Assembly (NCBI GenBank): GCA_016195915.1
Contig: JACPYS010000015.1
Location: forward strand, 124,001 to 188,000
From: Betaproteobacteria bacterium
GTDB lineage: Bacteria; Pseudomonadota; Gammaproteobacteria; Burkholderiales; SG8-39
Reading direction: 5' to 3'
DNA length: 64,000 bases
Positions within the stretch are counted from its first letter, which is position 1; every line of letters starts with the position of its first letter. A program made the translations under genes and the position numbers. The notes beneath the pieces are model-generated. The model saw nothing but the letters and a program-made list of their open reading frames with translations, had not been told where the DNA came from and did no database searches. Of this stretch, positions 51,098 to 64,000 are shown piece by piece.

Positions 51098-52854
51098 TTG
51101 TGGTCTCCCGAGTAATCGCGCACGCCGGGCTGCGACTTGGTGATCACCACGTCGCGGTAATCGATGCGCGGCGGGCCGCTCGGATGGTAGTAGGCCAGCG
51201 AATGGCGCAGGAACTTCTTGTCGTCGCGTTCGACGAAGTCCAGCCGCTGGTGCGCGCCGCGCGATTCCCTGCGCTCGAGCGCGCTCACCGTGACCGCTTC
51301 GGCGCAATCGAGCATCGAGCCGAGTTCGAGCGCCTGCAGCAGGTCGGTGTTGTAGACGTTGGTCTTGTCGTTCAGCTCGATGTCGGCATAGCGGCGGCGC
51401 AGATCGGCGAGCTTCGCGCACGCCGCCAGCAACTCGCCCTCCGTGCGGTAAATTCCCGCGTTGTCCTCCATTGTCGTCATCATCTCCTTGCGCAGGCCGG
51501 CGAGCGATTCCCTGCCGCCGGTTTTCTCGAACAGCGCGCGGATGCGTGCCTGCGCTGCCGCTGCCTTCCCCGCAAGCGCCGCATCGTTGCCCGCACTCGC
51601 GCCGGAGCGCACGTACTCTGCCGCGCTCAGCCCCGCCCGACGCCCGAACACCAGCAGTTCGGTGAGCGAATTGGAACCCAGCCGGTTGGCGCCATTGATG
51701 CTCACGCAGGCGCACTCGCCGGCGGCGAACAGTCCCGGGAGCGGCGTCGCGGCCCGGATGTCGGTGTGGATTCCGCCCATCATGTAATGCACCACCGGGC
51801 GCACAGGCACCGGATCGGTGACCGGATCGACGCCCAGGTAGCTGACGCTCACATCGCGTACCAGGGGCAGCCGCTCGTCGATCTTCTTCTCGCCCAGGTG
51901 CCGCAAGTCGAGCATCATGCAATCGCCCCACTTGGTGGACACCATGTTGCCCTTTTTCTGCTCCTGCCAGAATGCCTGGCTCACGCGATCGCGCGGTCCG
52001 AGTTCCATGGTCTTGAGCTGCGGCTTGCCGACCGGCGTTTCCGGTCCCATGCCGTAGTCCTGCAGGAAGCGGCGTCCGTTCTTGTTGACCAGAATTCCGC
52101 CTTCCCCGCGGCACGCTTCGGTGAGCAGCGTGCCCGTGTTGGGCAATCCGGTCGGGTGGTACTGGACGAACTCCATGTCCTTGAGCGGCACACCTGCACG
52201 GTAGGCGAGCGCCATGCCGTCACCGGTCTTGACCGCGCCGTTGGTCGTGAACGGAAACATGCGGCCCGCGCCGCCGCCCGCAATGATCACTGCGCCGGCC
52301 TGGAAGTGCTTCATCTGTCCGCTGCGCATCTCGATCGCGGTGAACCCCTGGCAGCGCCCGTCATCGACGATCAGGTCGGTGGCGTAGTACTCGTCGAAGC
52401 GCTGGATCGACGGAAACCTCAGGGAAGTCTGGAACAACGTATGCAGGATGTGGAAACCCGACTTGTCGGCAGCGAACCACGTGCGCTGCTTCTTCATGCC
52501 GCCAAACGGCCGCACGGCTACCGACCCGTTCGCCTCGCGGCTCCACGGGCAACCCCAGTGTTCGAGTTGGGTCAGTTCCTTCGGCGCCTCCTGGATGAAG
52601 TACTCTACCGCGTCCTGGTCCGAAAGCCAGTCTCCGCCGCCGACCGTGTCGTTGAAGTGGTAGTCCATGCTGTCGTCGGGCTTGATCACACCGGCCGCTC
52701 CACCCTCCGCCGCACAGGTATGGCTGCGCATCGGATAGACTTTCGAGATCAGCGCGACGCTCAGTTTCGGGTCGGCCTCGGCGAGCGCAATCGCTGCGCG
52801 CAGGCCTGCGCCACCCGCTCCGATGATCGCTACGTCAGTCTTTATTGTTTCCAA
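51094..52854 (-). CDS. frdA: Fumarate reductase flavoprotein subunit
   Basis: MRSHTCAAEGGAAGVI; HYMMGGIHTD; GANRLGSNSLTELLVFGRRAG. Confidence 0.94.
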   Translation of the reverse strand: METIKTDVAIIGAGGAGLRAAIALAEADPKLSVALISKVYPMRSHTCAAEGGAAGVIKPDDSMDYHFNDTVGGGDWLSDQDAVEYFIQEAPKELTQLEHWGCPWSREANGSVAVRPFGGMKKQRTWFAADKSGFHILHTLFQTSLRFPSIQRFDEYYATDLIVDDGRCQGFTAIEMRSGQMKHFQAGAVIIAGGGAGRMFPFTTNGAVKTGDGMALAYRAGVPLKDMEFVQYHPTGLPNTGTLLTEACRGEGGILVNKNGRRFLQDYGMGPETPVGKPQLKTMELGPRDRVSQAFWQEQKKGNMVSTKWGDCMMLDLRHLGEKKIDERLPLVRDVSVSYLGVDPVTDPVPVRPVVHYMMGGIHTDIRAATPLPGLFAAGECACVSINGANRLGSNSLTELLVFGRRAGLSAAEYVRSGASAGNDAALAGKAAAAQARIRALFEKTGGRESLAGLRKEMMTTMEDNAGIYRTEGELLAACAKLADLRRRYADIELNDKTNVYNTDLLQALELGSMLDCAEAVTVSALERRESRGAHQRLDFVERDDKKFLRHSLAYYHPSGPPRIDYRDVVITKSQPGVRDYSGDHK

Positions 52855-52916
52855 TTCGTGGCTCCCGGGCGAAACGCCCTTTAGTCGAATTATTGACGTC
52901 TGCCCGGGTGTCGGAT

Positions 52917-52930
52917 TTGACCAGGATCAA
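52917..52930. promoter_or_regulatory. FNR/CRP-family palindrome in the divergent frdA/cytochrome intergenic region
   Basis: TTGACCAGGATCAA versus TTGAT-N4-ATCAA, one mismatch; centred about 62-68 bp from both start codons. Confidence 0.55.
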
Positions 52931-52991
52931 TTCGCGTTGCGCGTTGCGTCATATCCTCGTGCACATGCTAATTCGTCGACAGGAAAATTCC

Positions 52992-54284
52992 ATGAAAAAG
53001 ATCGCTCTTGTTCTCAGCCTCGGCGCATTCGCCGCAGGCTCCGCATTTGCCGCAGACCCGGCTACGATTGACTGGTCGAAGATTCCGGTCGCAAATGTCG
53101 CCCTGTTCTATCCCGGACAGTCCTCCTACGAATGGGTGCGCAGCACGGCTCATCCGGGCGCCGCCATGGTCAAGAAGGACCAAGCCTGCGTCACGTGCCA
53201 CACCGGAAAAGAAAAAGCCATGGGCGACAAGATCGTCAAGGGCGGCCCGCTGGAGCCGGTGCCGGTCAAAGGAAAGAACGGCTCGGTCGACCTGAAATTC
53301 CAGGCAGCCTACGACGCGAAAAACGCCTACCTGCGGTTCCAGTGGAAGACCCTGAATTCTTTTCCGGGCTCAGAGCACCAGTACCTGCGCTTCGACGGCA
53401 AGGAATGGAAGGTCTACGGCTATCCGAAGCTCGACAAGGTGGTGCAGGAAGGCAAGCAGCCTGGCATCTACGAGGACCGCATGACGATTATGATCGACGA
53501 TGGCAAGGTGCCCGGATTCGCGCAGCAAGGCTGCTGGCTCACCTGCCACGACGGCCAGCGCGACATGCCGAAGCAGTTCACCAAGGAAGAGGTCGCCGCC
53601 AACGCGTTGCTGCAGGCGATCAAGAAGGGCGACGTGCGCAAGTACCTGCCGGCCACGCGCAATGATCCATCGGACTGGAAGACCGGCAAGTCGGTCGAGG
53701 AAATCGCCAAGGTCAAGGCCGCGGGCGGCTTCGTCGATCTGATTCAGTGGCGCGCGCACCGCTCGCACGCCGTTGGCATGGCAGACGACGGTTACGTCCT
53801 CGAATGGCGCCTGAGCGATGGCGGCAAGGACATGTTCGGCGGCAACGCCGACGCCAAGACCCACGCGCCGAAATTCATGTGGGACGAGAAGAAAGTCGGC
53901 TACAAGTCGATCACCGCCGATCAGCTGCGCAAGGGTGACCATTTCCTGGTGCGCGAAAAGAACGCCGTGCCCTTCGATGCGAATGCGGGCTGGAAGGAGG
54001 GCGACATGATCCCCGACTACATCGTCAGCCGCGAAGACGCCGCCGGCTCGGCCGCGGACAATAACGCCATTGCTAGCTGGAAGGACGGAATGTGGACCGT
54101 GGTGATGATCCGGCCGCTCGGCCTTGCCAACGTGGACGACAAGTCCCTCAAGGAAGGTGGCGTCTATAACATCGGCCTCGCAGTGCACGACGACAATATC
54201 ACCACGCGCGGCCACCACATTTCCTTCGTAAGGACGCTCGGATTCGGCGCAAAGGCGAGCATCGAGGCGGTGAAGCTGCCGTAA
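52992..54284 (+). CDS. Ethylbenzene-dehydrogenase-related periplasmic heme protein / c-type cytochrome
   Basis: Signal MKKIALVLSLGAFAAGSAFA; CVTCH (CXXCH) and CWLTCHDG (CX3CH); EB_dh-like C-terminal region. Confidence 0.85.
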   Translation: MKKIALVLSLGAFAAGSAFAADPATIDWSKIPVANVALFYPGQSSYEWVRSTAHPGAAMVKKDQACVTCHTGKEKAMGDKIVKGGPLEPVPVKGKNGSVDLKFQAAYDAKNAYLRFQWKTLNSFPGSEHQYLRFDGKEWKVYGYPKLDKVVQEGKQPGIYEDRMTIMIDDGKVPGFAQQGCWLTCHDGQRDMPKQFTKEEVAANALLQAIKKGDVRKYLPATRNDPSDWKTGKSVEEIAKVKAAGGFVDLIQWRAHRSHAVGMADDGYVLEWRLSDGGKDMFGGNADAKTHAPKFMWDEKKVGYKSITADQLRKGDHFLVREKNAVPFDANAGWKEGDMIPDYIVSREDAAGSAADNNAIASWKDGMWTVVMIRPLGLANVDDKSLKEGGVYNIGLAVHDDNITTRGHHISFVRTLGFGAKASIEAVKLP

Positions 54285-54343: not shown

Positions 54344-54886
54344 CTATCGCCTCGCCGCTGGGTGACTAGACCGCCTCGATTCGTCCGGCAACGCGCGCGT
54401 CTTAAGGTCGCGCGCATCGAGACTCGCCGCGCGCAGGCGTGCAAGGCGCTCCCGGCTCAGGGTTTCAGCAAACACCAGCTCGAGCGGAAATCCGTTGGCG
54501 GCGTGGGCTGCGATTCGCCCGGTTTCTGCCCAACTGGTACCGCGATGGGCCAGCACAAGCAGGTCCAGATCGGACTTTGGATGAACCCGCCCCGAGGCGA
54601 GCGAGCCGAACACCCGCACCTTGACGCCGGCGCGCTCTAGCGCCGCGATCACGCGCTTTGCCGCCACACCGGCCTGTAACAGGCGTTCGGCGCAGCGCCG
54701 ATCGATCAAGCGTTCGATCGGGCTGCCCGCGACCGCGCCGGCATGGCGCGGCGGATCTGAAAACTCACCGGCCTGCCGCGCGCTCTCCGCCATCGTGCCG
54801 CGCGAGTTACGCGTGCGCCGGGTCGTTTCACGGCGGAGCTCGCTCTTGATCGCCTGTCCTCTGGGCCGAGGGGTGTTGCGCGCCAC
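54344..54886 (-). CDS. MNT-type nucleotidyltransferase domain protein
   Basis: VRVFGSLASGRVHPKSDLDLLVLA (GSxxxGxxxxxSDxDLLV). Confidence 0.78.
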   Translation of the reverse strand: MARNTPRPRGQAIKSELRRETTRRTRNSRGTMAESARQAGEFSDPPRHAGAVAGSPIERLIDRRCAERLLQAGVAAKRVIAALERAGVKVRVFGSLASGRVHPKSDLDLLVLAHRGTSWAETGRIAAHAANGFPLELVFAETLSRERLARLRAASLDARDLKTRALPDESRRSSHPAARR

Positions 54887-54893
54887 GAGAAGC

Positions 54894-55184
54894 CTATGCC
54901 CCGATCGGCATCATATGTTTCAGTTGATCCTCAATTGCGTTTCGAGCTTCACGCAATTCATATTCATCCTGCAATCCCATCCAGAATTGCACAGAGGTTC
55001 CAAATACCTTGGCGAGCCGCAGTGCGGTATCCGCAGTAATGCCGCGCTTGCCCAGCACGATCTCGTTAATGCGGCGCGGTGGCACACCAATCGAATGAGC
55101 CAGCCTGGTTTGGCTTATTTCCATTGGGCGCAGAAACTCTTCGAGGAGCACTTCGCCAGGGTGAATGTTCAGTAATTTATCCAT
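54894..55184 (-). CDS. higA: HigA-family antitoxin (XRE)
   Basis: NIHPGEVLLEEFLRPMEISQTRLAHSIGVPPRRINEIVLGKRGITADTALRLAKVFGTSVQFWMGLQ. Confidence 0.92.
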   Translation of the reverse strand: MDKLLNIHPGEVLLEEFLRPMEISQTRLAHSIGVPPRRINEIVLGKRGITADTALRLAKVFGTSVQFWMGLQDEYELREARNAIEDQLKHMMPIGA

Positions 55185-55194
55185 TCCCTTCTCC

Positions 55195-55476
55195 TTAATG
55201 GTAGTCAACTATCTCAACATCATCAGGGCCGTTTCGCGTCCACAAAAAACAGATTCGCCACTGATCATTGATACGAATGCTGTGCTGCCCTTTTCGATCA
55301 TCTTTCAATACTTCCAACCGATTGGCTGGCGGAATCCTCAAGTCATTTAGCACCTGCGCCTTGTCCAGCATGAACAATTTCCGCAAAGCGACCTGCTGAA
55401 TTTCGCGCGGCAACTTACGCGATACCTCGCCCCGCCAGACTTTTTCAGTTTCCTTGGATGCAAATCCGATGATCAT
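55195..55476 (-). CDS. higB: HigB-family RelE-like toxin
   Basis: DLRIPPANRLEVLKDDRKGQHSIRINDQWRICFLWTRNGPDDVEIVDYH. Confidence 0.92.
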   Translation of the reverse strand: MIIGFASKETEKVWRGEVSRKLPREIQQVALRKLFMLDKAQVLNDLRIPPANRLEVLKDDRKGQHSIRINDQWRICFLWTRNGPDDVEIVDYH

Positions 55477-55516: not shown

Positions 55517-55987
55517 CTACCCACGGCGCGGCAGCTCGATCGCGTCGCGGTGGCCGAATCCGGCAGAGTTGTCGATGAAGTACAGGCGGTCAGTAACCAC
55601 TTCGTACCAGCGCACCTTGTCCATCGCTTTTGCGATCGCAACCGGTGCCTGCGCCAATCCGCGAATGAGAGGGAACTTCTCGCCATAAATGTGGCGGGCG
55701 TGCTGTTCCCGCTCGCCGCCGATCTCCCGGGCGATCCCTTCCAGTTGAACGCCCTTGATCTCCGGCCAGTCGGCGTAGTCCTCCTGCACCGTCGCCGAAA
55801 CGCGCGGGCTTTCCGCCAGGTTGCGGCAATGCCGGCTGGAAGGTGAAGACAGGAATATCAGGTTGAAGCCATCGCTGACGTAGAACACGGCGGCGGCCCA
55901 GACACCCTCGCTGCCGTGGGTTGCCAATGTCATGACGTGATGCTCGCGCAGATACGCCGCGACCCGCCGGTGCAGCACCTCGCGCAT
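55517..55987 (-). CDS. Pyridoxamine 5'-phosphate oxidase-fold protein
   Basis: MTLATHGSEGVWAAAVFYVSDGFNLIFLSSPSSRHCRNLAESPRVSATVQEDY. Confidence 0.8.
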   Translation of the reverse strand: MREVLHRRVAAYLREHHVMTLATHGSEGVWAAAVFYVSDGFNLIFLSSPSSRHCRNLAESPRVSATVQEDYADWPEIKGVQLEGIAREIGGEREQHARHIYGEKFPLIRGLAQAPVAIAKAMDKVRWYEVVTDRLYFIDNSAGFGHRDAIELPRRG

Positions 55988-57732
55988 CAGTACCGGTCTG
56001 CTGAAGAATCCGTAGACGTCACCGGCGCGATCTGGGTCTTGGACGGTTCGCCCTCGCTCAAGCGCTTGAGGCGGTAGGCAAACTGCGGTCGCGTCAGCCC
56101 CAGCATGCGGGCAGCGGAGGAGAGATTCCCGCGCGCCTTGTCGACCGCCGTTTCGAGCAGCATGACTTCGAGCTGGTCGAGCGTCATGACGCCGTTGAAC
56201 ACCGCCTCGCACAGATTCTTCGCGGTTTCGGACTGGCCGACATCGAGGCCGCCGTTCATGCCAAGGCTGAACTCCCGCGAGTGTTCGTCCGCGCACGGCG
56301 AGAAAAGGTGGTTCACCTCGATGCGGGTGCCGCTCGGTGCGAGGATCACGCCCCGCTCGATCATGTTCTGCAGTTCGCGGATGTTGCCCGGCCAGGTGTA
56401 GGTCAGCAGCGCCCGTTTCGCCTTGTCGGTGAAGCCGCGCAGCTTCTTGCCGTGGATCGCGGAATACTTCGCCAGAAACCGCTTGGCCAGCGGGGAGATA
56501 TCTTCCTTGCGTTCGCGCAGCGGCGGAATCTCGACCTGGTAGGCGTTGAGCCGGTAGTAGAGGTCGGAGCGGAACTTGCCTTCCTTCACCAGCCGGTGGA
56601 GGTCGCCGTTGGTCGCCGCAATCATCCGGACATTGACCTTGCGCGTCTTCTGGTCGCCCAAGCGCTCGATCTCGCCTTCCTGCAGCACCCGCAGCAGCTT
56701 GCTCTGGGCCGGAAGGGGCAGCTCGCCGATTTCGTCGAGAAACAGGCTGCCGCCGTCGGCCCGCTCGAATCGTCCGTGACGCGAGACGAGCGCGCCGGTG
56801 TAGGCGCCCTTTTCGACACCGAACAGCTCGGCTTCCACCAAATCGTGGGGGATGGCCGCGCAATTGACGGCGACGAACGGGCGTTCGCGGCGCGGTCCGG
56901 ATTCGTGCAGGTAGCGCGCGAACATCTCCTTTCCGACGCCGGTCTCGCCGCGCAGCAGCACGGTGATCTGACTGCTCGCGGCCTGCTTGAGCAGCCCGTA
57001 GGCCGCGCGGAACCCGGGCGAACTGCCGACCATGTCGCCGGGCAGTGCCTCCTTCTCGCCAATGGTGGCGCGCAGCTGAACCACCTGGGTCTGCAGGTCG
57101 AACAACTGCTCGGCGATCGACTCGGGCGTGAAGAAGCGCATGTGCTCGGCCGCGTCCTCCCATTCCTCGACAGGCTTGCCGACGATGCGGCAGTTGTTGT
57201 GCCCGGCCCCGGTGCACTCGACTTCCTTGTACAGGATGGTGCGGCCCATGAACGCCGAGGTATAGCCGCAGGCGTAGCCGATCTGGGTCCAGCACACCGG
57301 ATCGGAGTGGATGCCGTAGTAGTGCCGGTGCCATTGCCCTTCCCAGGAATTCTCCCAGAGGAACTCGCCGTAGAACTTGCCCGCCACGCGGTCCAGCTCC
57401 AGCTTGACGGGCGTGACCCGGACGATGCCCTCCAGCGTGTGGAGCTGCGGGCCGGTCATGAAGGCTTCGATGTCGCTGCAGTTCTGCGCGCGCGTGCGCG
57501 CGAGCTCCGCATCGCGCACACCGGAAGCGTAGCCCATGCGCGTGAGCAATCCTTGAGCCCGCTCCCTGCCCAGGGTATCGATCAATTCCTTGCGCAAAGA
57601 CGCCTGCGCCTCGGCATGCACCAGCAGCATACGATGCTCGTGCAGCCAGATCTGGCCCGTCTCTGCACAAAAATGCACGCGGGCGCGCAGGTCATCGCCC
57701 GCTGTGCGCTCCACACTGCGGAGCTTCGTCAT
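55987..57732 (-). CDS. XylR/DmpR-type sigma54-dependent activator (XylR_N, V4R, AAA+, Fis HTH)
   Basis: N-terminal sensor plus V4R ([36 protein letters not shown]); [28 protein letters not shown]-terminal [22 protein letters not shown]. Confidence 0.93.
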
Positions 57733-57785: not shown

Positions 57786-57799
57786 TTGATCGAGGTCAA
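57786..57799. promoter_or_regulatory. TTGATC-N2-GGTCAA palindrome (candidate activator UAS or FNR-like site)
   Basis: TTGATCGAGGTCAA in the divergent intergenic region, 54 bp upstream of the activator start codon. Confidence 0.4.
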
Positions 57800-58039: not shown

Positions 58040-58055
58040 TGGTACGGACCTTGCG
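58040..58055 (+). promoter_or_regulatory. Candidate sigma54 (-24/-12) promoter for the pps-like operon
   Basis: TGGTACGGACCTTGCG versus TGGCACGN4TTGCW: GG and GC with exact 10-nt spacing; about 80 bp upstream of the 58134 ATG. Confidence 0.65.
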
Positions 58056-58133: not shown

Positions 58134-59969
58134 ATGAAGTTTCCGAATCCGCACGACATCAAGGCCAAAGCCATACCGGGCACCGAAGGCTGGGAACGGA
58201 TGTATCCGTACCAGTACCAGTTCGTCACCGACGATCCCGTGCGCAACCAGTACGAGAAGGACACGTTCTGGTTCTACGACGGATTGCACTATCCCGAGCC
58301 GCTGTACCCCTTCGACACGATCTGGGACGAGGCCTGGTACCTGGCCCTGTCGCAGTTCAATAACCGCATTTTCATGGTACCGCCGGTGCGGGGTGTCGAC
58401 CACCGTATCATCAACGGATACGTTTACATCTCGCCGGTTCCGGTGAAGGACCCGGAGGAAATCGGCCGCCGTGTGCCGAACTTCATGGAGCGCGCCGGTT
58501 TCTACTACAAGAACTGGGATGAACTCGAGGCCAAATGGAAGGTCAAGATGGAGGCCACGATCCGCGAACTCGAGGCAATCAAGATTCCGCGCCTCGCGGA
58601 CATGGAAGATATGTCGGTGGTGACCGACGCCATTGGCGAGTCGAAGGGCTACCACCTGCTCAAGAACTACGACGACCTGATCAACCTGGGCATCAAGTGC
58701 TGGCAATACCACTTCGAGTTCCTCAACCTCGGCTATGCCGCCTACGTGTTCTTCCTCGACTTCGTGCAGAAGCTGTTTCCCAGCATTCCGGCGCAGCGCG
58801 TGACGCAGATGATTTCGGGCATCGACGTGATCATGTATCAGCCCGACGAGGAACTGAAGAAGCTCGCCCGCAAAGCCCTCGAACTGGGCGTGGACTCGGT
58901 CGTCACCTTCAGCAAGGATTGGACGCAGGTCGAGGCGGCCCTGAAGAAACTGCCCAAGGGCGTCGAGTGGCTCACCTCGCTCGACCTGGCGCGCGAACCC
59001 TGGTTCAATATTTCCACCGGGACCGGCTGGTTCCACCACGACCGCTCGTGGAACGACCAGATGAACGTGCCGCTGTCGGGCATTGCCACCTACATCGGCA
59101 AGATAAAACAGGGGGCCTCCATCGATCGTCCGACGGCGAAGGTCCGCGCCGAGCGCGACCGCATCACCGCAGAATATCGCGGCCTGATCGAGAAAGAAGA
59201 AGACCGCAAACAGTTCGATGAGCTGCTTGGATGCGCCAAAACGGTGTTCCCCTACGTGGAAAACCATCTGTTCTACGTCGAGCATTGGTTCCATTCGGTG
59301 TTCTGGAACAAGGTGCGCGAGGTGGGGGTGATCATGAAGGAGCATGGCGTGATCGAAGACGTCGAGGACATCTGGCTGCTGCGCCGCGACGAAATCAAGT
59401 CCGCGCTCTGGGACATCGTCACGGCCTGGGCCACCGGCGTCACGCCGCGCGGCACCAAGACCTGGCCGAAGGAAATCGTCTGGCGCAAGGGCGTAATGCA
59501 GAAATTCAAGGAGTGGAATGCTCCCCCCGCCATCGGCACCGCGCCGGAAGTGATCCAGGAACCGTTCACCATCGTCCTGTGGGGCGTCACCAACAAGTCG
59601 CTCGCCGATTGGGCGGCGGTGCAGGATGTCAGGGACCCCGCCAACGTCAAGGAGTTGAAAGGATTCGCGGGCAGTCCCGGCATCATCGAAGGCAAGGCGC
59701 GCGTGTGCAAGACGGTGAGCGAGGTCGGCGAGTTGCTCGAGGGCGAGATTCTCGTTGCCCCGACGACGTCGCCTTCCTGGGCGCCGGCCTTTGCGAAGAT
59801 CGGGGCCTGTGTCACCGACGTGGGCGGCGTGATGAGCCATGCGGCGATCGTCTGTCGCGAGTACGGCATGCCGGCGGTGGTCGGAACCGGTCACGCAACG
59901 AAGATCATCAGGACGGGAATGATGCTGCGTGTCGACGGTTCGACCGGCGCAGTGACCATCGCACGCTGA
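58134..59969 (+). CDS. ppsA: Phenylphosphate synthase alpha-subunit-like protein (phosphohistidine swivel domain)
   Basis: Phosphohistidine motif DVGGVMSHAAIVCREYGMPAVVGTG at the C-terminus; no ATP-binding domain; companion ppsB-like gene. Confidence 0.8.
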   Translation: MKFPNPHDIKAKAIPGTEGWERMYPYQYQFVTDDPVRNQYEKDTFWFYDGLHYPEPLYPFDTIWDEAWYLALSQFNNRIFMVPPVRGVDHRIINGYVYISPVPVKDPEEIGRRVPNFMERAGFYYKNWDELEAKWKVKMEATIRELEAIKIPRLADMEDMSVVTDAIGESKGYHLLKNYDDLINLGIKCWQYHFEFLNLGYAAYVFFLDFVQKLFPSIPAQRVTQMISGIDVIMYQPDEELKKLARKALELGVDSVVTFSKDWTQVEAALKKLPKGVEWLTSLDLAREPWFNISTGTGWFHHDRSWNDQMNVPLSGIATYIGKIKQGASIDRPTAKVRAERDRITAEYRGLIEKEEDRKQFDELLGCAKTVFPYVENHLFYVEHWFHSVFWNKVREVGVIMKEHGVIEDVEDIWLLRRDEIKSALWDIVTAWATGVTPRGTKTWPKEIVWRKGVMQKFKEWNAPPAIGTAPEVIQEPFTIVLWGVTNKSLADWAAVQDVRDPANVKELKGFAGSPGIIEGKARVCKTVSEVGELLEGEILVAPTTSPSWAPAFAKIGACVTDVGGVMSHAAIVCREYGMPAVVGTGHATKIIRTGMMLRVDGSTGAVTIAR

Positions 59970-59975
59970 CACGCC

Positions 59976-61106
59976 ATGGCTGCGGCTGCAGCGATCATCG
60001 GCAACGCGCCACCGGCGGGCGAGTCACAGATGGGCCCGCCGGTGGTCTGCTGGTTGGAGGAGTGCAGGAAGGATTCGGTACCCCTGGTTGGCGGCAAGTG
60101 TTCGTCGCTCGGCGAATTGATCGGCGCCGGCGTGCGCGTGCCGCCCGGTTTCGCGCTCACCACCGAGGGCTACCGGCGCTTCCTGGCAGACGCGGGGGGC
60201 GCCGCCGAGATCCAATCGCTGCTCCGGGGTGTCGATGCAAGGGACATGGGCGCGCTGGAGACCGCCAGCGCGTCCATCCGCCAGGCGATCGAAGCACTGC
60301 CCTTCTCCATGGAATTGGAGGACATGATCGCGGAGTGCTACCGCAAGCTCTCGGTGCGCTGCTGCATGCCGGCAGTACCCGTCGCAGTGCGCTCGAGCGC
60401 CACGGCCGAGGACCTGCCGGGGGCCAGCTTTGCCGGCCAGCAGGATACGTTCCTCTGGATACGCGGTGTCGACGACGTGCTGGACCGCGTCCGGCGCTGC
60501 ATCTCCAGCCTGTTCAGCGCACGCGCCATCGCCTATCGCGCCAACAAGGGGTTCGACCACGATCAGGTGGCGATCTGCGTGGGCGTGCAGAAAATGGCCA
60601 ACTCGTTCACTGCGGGCGTGATGTTCACCATTCATCCGGCCAACGGCGATCGCTCGGTCATCGTGATCGATTCCAATTTCGGTTTCGGCGAGTCTGTCGT
60701 CTCGGGTGAGGTGACGCCGGACCACTTCGTGGTGAACAAGATCACGCTGGACATCATCGATCGCACCATCTCGCGCAAGCTCGTGTGTTACACAGTCGAT
60801 CCGAAGACGCAGAAGTCCCAGGCCGTGGAGGTTCCATTCGAGCGTCAGGAGGTGCAGTCGCTGATCGACGACGAGATCACCGAACTGGCCTGGCTGGGAA
60901 AACAGATCGAGAAACACTACGGCTGCCCGATGGATATCGAATGGGCGCTCGACAAGGACCTTCCCGCCGGAGGCAATCTGTTCATCCTGCAGGCGCGCCC
61001 CGAGACCGTGTGGAGCCGGAAAATCCAGCCCGGCAGTGCGCACGCGGGCGGCTCCGCCATGGATTACATCCTCTCGAGCATGCTGGCTGGAAAGAAAGTC
61101 GGTTAA
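59976..61106 (+). CDS. ppsB: Phenylphosphate synthase beta-subunit-like protein (PEP synthase-type ATP-binding domain)
   Basis: PLVGGKCSSLGELIGAGVRVPPGFALTTEGYRRF; VAVRSSATAEDLPGASFAGQQDTFLWI; MDIEWALDKDLPAGGNLFILQARPETVWS. Confidence 0.82.
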   Translation: MAAAAAIIGNAPPAGESQMGPPVVCWLEECRKDSVPLVGGKCSSLGELIGAGVRVPPGFALTTEGYRRFLADAGGAAEIQSLLRGVDARDMGALETASASIRQAIEALPFSMELEDMIAECYRKLSVRCCMPAVPVAVRSSATAEDLPGASFAGQQDTFLWIRGVDDVLDRVRRCISSLFSARAIAYRANKGFDHDQVAICVGVQKMANSFTAGVMFTIHPANGDRSVIVIDSNFGFGESVVSGEVTPDHFVVNKITLDIIDRTISRKLVCYTVDPKTQKSQAVEVPFERQEVQSLIDDEITELAWLGKQIEKHYGCPMDIEWALDKDLPAGGNLFILQARPETVWSRKIQPGSAHAGGSAMDYILSSMLAGKKVG

Positions 61107-61156
61107 CGCAGCGCCTCCACGGTTTTCAAGTCATCTGCAACGCTAACGGAGCAAAC

Positions 61157-62668
61157 ATGAATGCACGCACCGAAGTAACACCCATCGACGACATTCGAAG
61201 CTACATTGCCGCGCTCGATGCCCACGGCGAACTGCACCGCGTGAGGGCGGAGGTGGACTGGAAATTCGAGCTGTGCCACGTCTCGAAGGTGAATGAAGAA
61301 AGGAAAGGGCCGGCGCTGCTGTACGAAAACGTCAAGGGTTACGACATCCCGGTTTTCACCAGCGCCTTTACCACCTCGCGGCGGCTGGCCATCGCTCTGG
61401 AGCAGGATCCTTCCCTGTCGATGAGCCAGCTCTCGAAGAAATGGATGGAGTTGACCACCAAGAAAATGGTCAAGCCACTGTTCATCGAAAATCCGAAGGT
61501 CAAGGAGAACATCCTCGAAGGCGATGCCGTCGATATCGAAATGTTTCCTTCGCCCTGGTTCTACCCCGACGATGGCGGCCGCTTCTTCGTTACTTCCGGG
61601 TTTCTGGTGACCCGTGATCCCGATACCGGCTGGACCAATCTCGGCACCTACCGCGCCCAGGTGCTGGGCAAGAAGATCCTGGGTTCGCAGATCATCAAGG
61701 GCAAGCACGGCGACATGCACATGAAGAAATACCAGGAGCGGGGTGAACTGATGCCTGCCGCTTATGTGGTGGGCACCGATCCGGTGCTGTTCCTGGCCAG
61801 TTCCACGCTGGTCAGCGCTCAGGTCGACGAGTACGAAGTGGCCGGCTCCCTGCGCGGCAAGCCGGTTGAGGTGTTCAAGTCCGATCTCACCGGGTTGATG
61901 CTGCCGGCCGCCGCCGAGATCATCGCCGAAGGCTGGATCGACCCGAACGAACTGATGGAGGAGGGTCCATTCGGCGAATACACGGGCTACTACTCGGGCA
62001 ACAAGGGCAAGGACTATCCCAAACCGGTGCTGCGCATCGCGCGCATCCTGCATCGCAACAAGCCGGTCATGTGGGCGACAACGGTCGGCAAACCGATCAA
62101 CGATATTCACATGATCCAGTCGTTAAACCGTACCGCGACGCTCTGGCATGACCTGGAGACCATGAAAGTGCCGGGCATCCAGAGCGTGTACATCCCGCCC
62201 GAGGCCTGCGGCCGTTTCTGGGTCGTGGTCTCGGTGAAGCAGATGTATCCGGGACACTCGAACCACGTCGGTCACGCCGTGATCGCAAGCACGACCGGGC
62301 ATTACGGCGTCAAGGGCGTAATCACGGTGGACCATGATATCGATGCCGAGGACTGGGACCGCATCTGGTGGGCGCTCGCGACCCGCTTCGATCCCAAGCG
62401 TTCGGCGCAGATCATCGACCGCGGTCGCTCGACGCCGCTCGATCCGGGTCTGCCGATCGAGGCGCGCGAGATTACCAGCCGCATCCTGCTCGACGCCTGT
62501 ACCCCTTATGAGTGGACCAACAAGCCCAATGAGATCTTCATGGATCGCAGCGTATTGCAGAAAGTATCGGACCGCTGGAACGAGTATGGCTTTGCCGGCG
62601 CAAGTCCGGTAGCCGGCATGATCAACCGGCTGACCCGGCCCGATGTGAAAAAGACAACGGGCAAGTAG
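61157..62668 (+). CDS. UbiD-family (de)carboxylase
   Basis: LLYENVKGYDIPVFTSAFTTSRRLAIAL; EGPFGEYTGYYSG; GHSNHVGHAVIASTTGHYGVKGVITVDHDIDAEDWDRIWWALATRFDP. Confidence 0.92.
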   Translation: MNARTEVTPIDDIRSYIAALDAHGELHRVRAEVDWKFELCHVSKVNEERKGPALLYENVKGYDIPVFTSAFTTSRRLAIALEQDPSLSMSQLSKKWMELTTKKMVKPLFIENPKVKENILEGDAVDIEMFPSPWFYPDDGGRFFVTSGFLVTRDPDTGWTNLGTYRAQVLGKKILGSQIIKGKHGDMHMKKYQERGELMPAAYVVGTDPVLFLASSTLVSAQVDEYEVAGSLRGKPVEVFKSDLTGLMLPAAAEIIAEGWIDPNELMEEGPFGEYTGYYSGNKGKDYPKPVLRIARILHRNKPVMWATTVGKPINDIHMIQSLNRTATLWHDLETMKVPGIQSVYIPPEACGRFWVVVSVKQMYPGHSNHVGHAVIASTTGHYGVKGVITVDHDIDAEDWDRIWWALATRFDPKRSAQIIDRGRSTPLDPGLPIEAREITSRILLDACTPYEWTNKPNEIFMDRSVLQKVSDRWNEYGFAGASPVAGMINRLTRPDVKKTTGK

Positions 62669-63910
62669 GTGAAGGGGATCGTCATCGTCTGCAACCTGGA
62701 CACGCGCGGGGAGGAAATCGTATTCGTCAAGGAACTCATCGCCGGCCGCGGCCACGAGCCGGTCCTGCTGGACTTCAGCATGGAGGAGCCTCCGCCCTTC
62801 CCCGGCGATATTCGTACCGAGGACGTGGCCGCGCGCGGCGGGCTGGCGATCGAAGTGGTGCGCGAGAAGTACCGTTCCGATCGCGATACGGCCACCAACA
62901 ACCAGATCCGGGGCGCGGCCGCGATCGTCGACGATCTGGTCAAGCAGGGCCGCGTACACGGCATTATCGGCATCGGCGGCGGCACCGCCACGCTGGTTGC
63001 GACATCGATCATGAAGCAACTTCCCTTCGGCATGCCGAAGCTGATGGCCTCGCCGATGGCCGCGCACCCGGCCTACATCGACAAGTACGTCGGCACCCGG
63101 GATATCACCATGCACCACACGGTGCTCGACATCGTGAAGATGAATCCGCTGCTCAAGGCGCAGATCATCAACGCGGTGGGCGCCATTTGCGGCATGGTCG
63201 AGATGACGCAGGGAACGCACATCACCTTCGACAAACCCTGTGTCGCCATCTCCTCGTTCGGTTTCGGCGAGATGGCGGTGCAGACGGCGGTCGGCATGCT
63301 GGAGGAAGCCGGCTTTACGCCCGTCGTTTGTCACGCGCAGGGCAAGGGCGACAAGGCGATGGAGGAAATGATCCGTGACGGCGTCTTTCACGGAGTGCTC
63401 GACATCTGCACTGGCGGCGTGATGGAACACCTGTTCAAGGGAAACCGCGATCCCGGGCCCAACCGGCTGATGGCCGCCGTGGAGGCCGGCATTGCGATGG
63501 TGCTCGCGCCCTGCGGCCTCGACATCCTGTCCTACGGTGGCCGCGCCGACATGCTGGAACGGACCGGGGACCGGGTTCAATACGTGCAGGATGCCCTGCG
63601 CGTCCAGGTGCGCACCACCGCCGACGAACTGCGCCAGGCCGCGGACGTGATCGCCGAACGGCTCAATCGCGCCAGGGGACCCTGGTCGTTCCTGATCCCG
63701 CTCAGGGGCTGGTCTTCGCTCGACAAGGAAGGCCGGCCGATTTACGACCCGGTCGCCGATGCCGCCTTCAGCGCGCGCTTGAAGGAAAAGCTCGCCGACC
63801 CGAGCCACCTCAGGGAGGTCGACCTGCACCTGTACACGCCCGAATTCGCGCGCGTCGCGGTGGACGAGTTCCTGCGGCTGTTCAGGACGGCGAAGACGCC
63901 GGCAGCATGA
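62669..63910 (+). CDS. Tm-1-like ATP-binding domain protein (UPF0261)
   Basis: GTG start abutting the ubiD-like stop; VIVCNLDTRGEEIVFVKELIAGRGHEPVLLDFSM; GIIGIGGGTATLVATSIMKQLPFGMPKLMASPMAA. Confidence 0.88.
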   Translation: MKGIVIVCNLDTRGEEIVFVKELIAGRGHEPVLLDFSMEEPPPFPGDIRTEDVAARGGLAIEVVREKYRSDRDTATNNQIRGAAAIVDDLVKQGRVHGIIGIGGGTATLVATSIMKQLPFGMPKLMASPMAAHPAYIDKYVGTRDITMHHTVLDIVKMNPLLKAQIINAVGAICGMVEMTQGTHITFDKPCVAISSFGFGEMAVQTAVGMLEEAGFTPVVCHAQGKGDKAMEEMIRDGVFHGVLDICTGGVMEHLFKGNRDPGPNRLMAAVEAGIAMVLAPCGLDILSYGGRADMLERTGDRVQYVQDALRVQVRTTADELRQAADVIAERLNRARGPWSFLIPLRGWSSLDKEGRPIYDPVADAAFSARLKEKLADPSHLREVDLHLYTPEFARVAVDEFLRLFRTAKTPAA

Positions 63911-64000
63911 TTCGCCCCTGGCCCCTTGCGGGTTCAGAACAGGTGTTCAGCGCCGGTCTGTTCCGCGTGACCTGCGACCGGGCCCGATCGCCGCGCACGG
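63907..64000 (+). CDS. Partial NUDIX hydrolase-like N-terminus (runs off the window)
   Basis: ATG overlapping the previous TGA; MIRPWPLAGSEQVFSAGLFRVTCDRARSPRT resembles N-termini of ADP-ribose pyrophosphatase-type NUDIX proteins. Confidence 0.5.
   Translation, partial: MIRPWPLAGSEQVFSAGLFRVTCDRARSPRT

Follow-up and report, generated by a model that had tools for sequence, protein, structure and literature searches.

What is known of anaerobic phenol carboxylation at the biochemical level comes from a carboxylase of four subunits that is sensitive to oxygen and difficult to work with. The operon described here raises the question of how phenol could be carboxylated where phenylphosphate synthase genes are followed by a single UbiD-family gene and a gene of the UPF0261 family. 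The operon lies at the end of the window, the whole 64,000-nucleotide stretch analysed (G000:C25:124001-188000 of a 6.8-Mb draft genome), and extends past its edge. Its features are listed below; type W denotes the compact operon layout defined further on.

55990..57732, minus strand: PheR, a XylR/DmpR-type sigma-54 activator divergent to ppsA, with XylR_N, V4R, Sigma54_activat and HTH_8 (Fis-type) domains
57786..57799, plus strand: UAS-like inverted repeat TTGATCGAGGTCAA, a candidate PheR site (consensus match only)
58040..58055, plus strand: candidate -24/-12 sigma-54 promoter TGGTACGGACCTTGCG, 94 nt upstream of ppsA
58134..59969, plus strand: PpsA, phenylphosphate synthase subunit; Pfam PEP-utilizers swivel domain only (residues 536-605), phosphorylatable histidine H569
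59976..61106, plus strand: PpsB, ATP-binding subunit; PPDK_N only (E 4.6e-114)
61157..62668, plus strand: PpcB-like UbiD carboxylase of the type-W clade; UbiD_N, Rift and C domains
62669..63910, plus strand: UPF0261 (Tm-1-like) protein, PF06792/PF23189; N- and C-terminal domains, both above cut-off
63907..64452 (L004:1907-2452), plus strand: NUDIX hydrolase, of which only the start (to 64000) is inside the window
64466-65149, window-equivalent (L004:2466-3149), same direction as ppsA: PpsC, CBS-domain protein, beyond the window edge
65146-65766, window-equivalent, same direction as ppsA: UbiX, beyond the window edge

The earlier note had described a PEP-synthase-like protein split into a swivel-only and an ATP-binding subunit, then a UbiD and directly after it a Tm-1-like protein, all closely spaced behind a divergent XylR/DmpR-like activator. 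The Pfam domains and coordinates agree with this description at each point. The gaps along ppsA, ppsB, ubiD, UPF0261 and the NUDIX gene are 6, 50, 0 and -4 nt, and PpsA-PpsB-UbiD-UPF0261 make up a tightly spaced operon, with the regulator gene divergent in front of it. The absence of ppsC claimed in the same note is true within the window and is lost once the contig is extended past its edge, where PpsC is encoded; ubiX, whose absence is likewise not supported, follows it. Dozens of named genomes contain this set of genes, so its assembly is not due to chance. Clustering of flanking ORFs across related loci gave no clear conserved neighbor outside the operon except an acyl-CoA ligase, and most of the clusters were shadow reading frames.

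All three synthase subunits are encoded in the operon. PpsA scores 1239.8 against the NCBIfam equivalog NF006152 (cut-off 723), a model that PpsA of Aromatoleum buckelii, run as the control, also passes. Identity to PpsA of A. buckelii and A. anaerobium is 82% in both cases, and the phosphorylatable histidine, H569, sits in the motif GGVMSHAAI. The adjacent PpsB is 73% identical to Aromatoleum PpsB, and PpsC has two CBS stretches and 59-60% identity to Aromatoleum PpsC. These comparisons establish the identities of the synthase genes at the level of sequence.

The regulator points to phenol. PheR is 74% identical to the regulator beside the Aromatoleum pps genes and matches the structures of CapR (DmpR), PoxR and MopR. 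Its sensor residues H98/W126 and C147/E170/C173/C181 align with the phenol-anchoring and zinc positions of MopR, whose residue numbering we take to assign the corresponding sites in PheR. The candidate promoter TGGTACGGACCTTGCG has a score of 17.7 out of 20.2, between the 95th (17.2) and 99th (18.2) percentiles of shuffled sequences. Many relatives with either operon type have stronger, near-perfect TGGCAC-N5-TTGC matches, mostly 80-120 nt upstream. In A. aromaticum, PheR is the phenol activator of ppsA1 and its His/Trp pair is important (PMC10715001). Since promoter and regulator are the same in both operon types, both would have the same substrate, and this operon very probably works on the substrate of the PpcABCD system.

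The carboxylase is where the operon departs from that system. Its UbiD scores 563.7 against TIGR02724, the phenylphosphate carboxylase beta model (cut-off 468.95), and 205.4 against the alpha model TIGR02723 (cut-off 564.6). Canonical PpcB reaches 1115 with TIGR02724, about twice the type-W score, and the two proteins are about 52% identical. The E-R-E triad for prenylated flavin (prFMN), R166/E269/E274, is kept in the window UbiD and in 46 of 46 type-W rows, and the UbiX partner for prFMN is encoded in the operon. On the UbiD tree the type-W enzymes are monophyletic (support 99), as is canonical PpcB (100); these two clades and another pair of UbiDs from this genome share one group (support 100). 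UbiD sensu stricto was rejected as the identity of the operon enzyme on the basis of this grouping with PpcB.

The other carboxylase subunits were sought throughout the genome, using models that each recognized the corresponding Aromatoleum protein (PpcA, B, C and D) above its own cut-off. There is no PpcA in the operon; the genome holds ten UbiD paralogues besides the operon UbiD, and the best alpha score among the 11 genes is that of an alpha-like gene on C36, at 343.9 (cut-off 564.6). PpcC has no match anywhere in the genome, with the same model that does detect Aromatoleum PpcC. The best genome-wide match to PpcD, the HAD phosphatase, is KdsC-like and scores 124 (cut-off 282). The reported lack of ppcC and ppcD in the window thus extends to the whole genome. 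With beta recovered and alpha, gamma and delta not recovered, the operon carboxylase does not belong to the four-subunit PpcABCD enzyme type. The alpha, beta and gamma subunits of Thauera aromatica carry out CO2 exchange and net carboxylation needs delta (PMC6114531), so the beta-only type-W carboxylase is putative. The alpha-like UbiD on C36 means that a carboxylase subunit could act from outside the operon, as is proposed for Desulfatiglans anilini.

The predicted route onward from 4-hydroxybenzoate is complete in this genome. The 4-hydroxybenzoyl-CoA reductase subunits pass their equivalog cut-offs (HcrA 1172.8 vs 994.6, HcrB 423.5 vs 404.6, HcrC 270.7 vs 257.8), and the Hcr genes on C7 adjoin a benzoate-CoA-ligase-family enzyme. 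A BcrCBAD operon on C28 encodes a benzoyl-CoA reductase (BcrA 722 vs 578, BcrB 765 vs 487, BcrC 649 vs 421, BcrD 422 vs 313), together with Oah and Dch, also over cut-off. Judged by gene content, the path from phenol to benzoyl-CoA and on to ring reduction is covered. A second candidate benzoyl-CoA reductase cluster, on C45, was rejected with every subunit under cut-off.

Searching GTDB genome contigs with a PpsA alignment gave 433 relatives, of which the best 80 loci were analysed. These 80 are the nearest by PpsA and come mostly from metagenome assemblies, so the counts characterize this sample and do not measure abundance in nature. Binning errors may account for some of their taxon labels (Myxococcales, Syntrophaceae). 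Forty-seven loci have the compact layout, type W (PheR, PpsA, PpsB, PpcB-like UbiD, UPF0261, sometimes NUDIX, PpsC, UbiX), 25 have the canonical layout, type C (PpsABC, PpcB, PpcD, PpcA, PpcC, a third UbiD, UbiX), and the remaining 8 are truncated or ambiguous. The compact layout is common to many uncultured proteobacteria; a cultivable carrier is Ramlibacter lithotrophicus RBP-1 (L083). What the earlier note called an unusual composition resides in the carboxylase module, a PpcB-like UbiD plus UPF0261 for PpcABCD, which recurs in 47 of the 80 loci, and not in a lack of ppsC. The note had already pointed to this module; its recurrence as an architecture emerges from the comparison of loci.

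The two layouts do not follow the phylogeny of the synthase. Mapping the W/C label onto the PpsA tree takes no fewer than 8 changes, of which well-supported branches force 6; with long branches removed the number is 7, and the hypothesis of one W clade is rejected (p-AU 5e-6). The label changes 6 times on the PheR tree and 4 times on the PpsB tree. Identity between PpsA proteins crosses the layouts in the same way: the window PpsA is 89% identical to that of the canonical-type locus L081 and 81% identical to that of the type-W locus L132. Labels mixed on the PpsA tree, with each UbiD type confined to one clade, indicate that carboxylase modules have been swapped repeatedly behind one synthase and phenol sensor. 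On the simplest reading of these trees, both carboxylase modules would act on phenylphosphate.

UPF0261 marks the compact module. Of the 38 type-W loci whose flanks extend far enough, 34 encode it, and the 25 canonical loci all lack it; an AMP-forming acyl-CoA ligase fills its slot in the other 4 of the 38 and in G120 (L050). The protein is 80-91% identical across 26 aligned loci and is encoded once in this genome. No W-type copy was found in the 368 other genomes of a class-wide sample, in which other family members score 109-200 bits compared with 889. The AlphaFold model (pLDDT 82, pTM 0.70) has 9mpy as its best structural match, followed by tomato Tm-1 (3wrw), and Foldseek matches outside the family are weak and were left aside. 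The rmsd to 9mpy is high, probably from domain motion between the model and the structure. The 9mpy entry is Saro_1862 of Novosphingobium aromaticivorans with bound acetovanillone, a phenolic ketone, which other bacteria degrade via a PpsAB-like kinase and then carboxylation (PMC9618137). This ligand and its fate elsewhere suggest, by analogy, that UPF0261 proteins bind phenolic rings. No established function for UPF0261 was found in the literature searched, and no description of it in a phenol operon was found in the open-access literature searched, most subscription literature being outside that scope.

Three other explanations of the locus were weighed. At the level of domains, the PEP-utilizers and PPDK_N matches would also be expected if parts of a generic PEP synthase or of a rifampicin phosphotransferase simply stood next to an ordinary UbiD, in which case there would be no phenol pathway. 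PpsA scores 105 against RIF_Ptrans_rph (cut-off 999) and 97 against PEP_synth (cut-off 740), so both identities were rejected, and it passes the phenylphosphate-synthase-type equivalog; PpsA and PpsB do not group with either family by equivalog scores, UbiD goes with PpcB by TIGR02724 and tree, and the PpsA and UbiD trees refute this explanation as well. Its probability is negligible. A less drastic alternative is that a different hydroxyarene, such as cresol, catechol or naphthol, is phosphorylated and carboxylated, and that the altered carboxylase reflects this substrate. The separate UbiD clade at about 52% identity to PpcB fits such a change, and related kinases take 4-cresol and hydroxyphenylethanones (PMC9618137). 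The kinase substrate classes in that study fall into distinct clades, however, whereas the PpsA and PheR trees interleave proteins from compact and canonical operons, the window PpsA is nearer to a canonical-type protein than to a type-W one, and PheR keeps the phenol-anchoring residues. A different hydroxyarene is consequently an unlikely substrate. Phosphorylation followed by carboxylation, as put forward in the earlier note, agrees with the PpsA equivalog and the grouping of UbiD with PpcB; phenol is the best reading of its substrate, and the unspecified hydroxyarene gives way to the same predicted pathway as in Thauera and Aromatoleum.

The third alternative concerns UPF0261 and NUDIX, which may be passengers beside a core of PpsABC, PpcB and UbiX, with PpcB alone sufficient, as may hold in Geobacter metallireducens. 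G. metallireducens and D. anilini are reported to have clusters with Ppc-beta only (PMC6114531), an acyl-CoA ligase occupies the UPF0261 slot at some loci, and at many no NUDIX gene was detected. Against a passenger stand the 80-91% conservation of UPF0261, its absence from 25 of 25 canonical operons and the confinement of W-type copies to these operons in the class-wide sample. We regard the passenger explanation as possible, though somewhat doubtful. A similarly tentative proposal is that the operon encodes a second, independently assembled phenylphosphate carboxylase, in which a PpcB-like UbiD and a dedicated UPF0261 subunit replace PpcA, PpcC and PpcD. Because the acyl-CoA ligase substitutes in a few loci, UPF0261 would not be strictly needed for the core reaction and may instead help to drive or finish carboxylation.

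The locus is likely to be a phenol-induced operon for anaerobic phenol activation, in which phosphorylation is followed by carboxylation by a single PpcB-type UbiD and metabolism proceeds to benzoyl-CoA. The enzyme activities and substrate in the following scheme, and above all the part given to UPF0261, are what we infer from the comparisons above. PheR would sense phenol and switch on the sigma-54 promoter. PpsB would phosphorylate H569 of PpsA with ATP, PpsC assisting, and PpsA would hand the phosphate to phenol to give phenylphosphate. The UbiD, with prenylated flavin from the operon's UbiX, would carboxylate phenylphosphate, releasing the phosphate and yielding 4-hydroxybenzoate, from which a CoA ligase and HcrABC would form benzoyl-CoA for BcrABCD. 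UPF0261 would most likely aid the carboxylation or product step served by PpcA, PpcC and PpcD in the canonical system, by binding the aromatic substrate or product.

A single-UbiD carboxylase would be simpler to express and would reveal which subunits are really needed, and the repeated exchange of carboxylase modules next to a constant synthase amounts to a natural test of that need. In this sample of closest relatives, compact operons outnumber canonical ones, and searches for phenol degraders keyed on PpcA, PpcC or PpcD would miss these organisms. The operon ties UPF0261 to aromatic catabolism, which fits the phenolic ketone in 9mpy; if the protein is indeed a carboxylase subunit, a family of unknown function gains a catabolic role.

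The pps-ppc variant with one UbiD and a conserved UPF0261 is new, and is not described in the open-access literature searched. It shares with the pps-ppc systems of T. aromatica and Aromatoleum the divergent PheR, the sigma-54 promoter, PpsA (82%), PpsB (73%), PpsC, a PpcB-type UbiD, UbiX and NUDIX, as well as Hcr and Bcr enzymes in the genome. It differs in having one UbiD and not three, in lacking PpcA, PpcC and PpcD, in the inserted UPF0261, in the position of PpsC after the carboxylase and in a PpcB that is about 52% identical. The Hpe/Acv hydroxyphenylethanone pathway (HpeHI) likewise uses a PpsA/PpsB-like two-part aryl kinase and then carboxylation, but its carboxylase is biotin-dependent and not a UbiD, and its kinase belongs to another clade (L053-type, 49% identical to the window PpsA). 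Saro_1862 (9mpy) and tomato Tm-1 (3wrw) belong to the same two-domain family as the window UPF0261 over the full length. Members of this family usually come with a TIM-barrel partner (PMC5028733). No such (TBST) companion is present among the operon genes, and the window protein departs from the family habit in that the sole genomic copy adjoins UbiD; many residues invariant in W-type copies differ in 9mpy. Closest in carboxylase content are the clusters of G. metallireducens and D. anilini, which share the synthase and a single beta-type UbiD. The available portions of their descriptions (PMC6114531, PMC1924859) make no mention of UPF0261, which sets them apart from the window operon, and for D. 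anilini give a PpsA 42% identical to that of Thauera and gamma, alpha and delta candidates located elsewhere. Compared with these clusters as so described, the type-W operon is a tidier beta-only case, with a nearly constant extra gene.

Two further PpcB-like UbiD genes are found elsewhere in the genome that carries the phenol locus.

L064:7533-9044, contig C20: PpcB-like UbiD, 60% to the window UbiD
L058:8723-10189, contig C64: PpcB-like UbiD, 52% to the window UbiD

The C20 protein scores above the cut-off of TIGR02724, the phenylphosphate carboxylase beta equivalog, and the C64 protein falls narrowly below it. Because both genes adjoin TctC-type binding proteins and neither has phenylphosphate synthase (Pps) genes nearby, TIGR02724 is not specific for phenylphosphate.

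The phenol locus is preceded in the window by four features, the middle two read from the sequence alone.

52845-54284 (+): c-type haem protein, like ethylbenzene-dehydrogenase-type haem subunits
54344-54886: putative nucleotidyltransferase-like small ORF, adjoining the next pair
54894-55476 (-): apparent HigB/HigA-type toxin-antitoxin pair
55517-55990 (-): pyridoxamine-phosphate-oxidase-like small gene (FMN-binding fold), immediately after the activator gene pheR

The haem protein gene has the phenol locus on one side and succinate dehydrogenase/fumarate reductase genes on the other. A similar pyridoxamine-phosphate-oxidase-like gene adjoins pheR in L093, L100 and other relatives, and the gene may therefore be a member of the regulon.

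Two more clusters lie beyond the window in the same genome.

L004:12583-15912, same contig, ~10.5 kb past the window: MtrB/PioB-like outer-membrane beta-barrel and adjoining multihaem c-type cytochrome
L055:9655-14719, contig C45: second benzoyl-CoA-reductase-like cluster

The barrel and cytochrome are suggestive of extracellular electron transfer; downstream, L005 holds further multihaem cytochromes together with NrfD-like genes. In the C45 cluster, two subunits are of the activase type and two of the HGD-D type. None of them reaches its equivalog cut-off, and the cluster is possibly another dearomatising or dehydratase system.

Pps and Pps-like loci also occur in other genomes.

L113:9944-18314: PpsA, PpsB and a separate W-type UPF0261
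L053:6138-12456 (G332): PpsA/PpsB-like kinase genes, biotin carrier and carboxyltransferase

L113 looks like a rearranged form of the window's compact operon (type W), with no UbiD adjoining PpsA/PpsB and the UPF0261 gene in its own transcription unit behind another PheR-like gene. The gene set of L053 resembles the hydroxyphenylethanone (Hpe/Acv) pathway.
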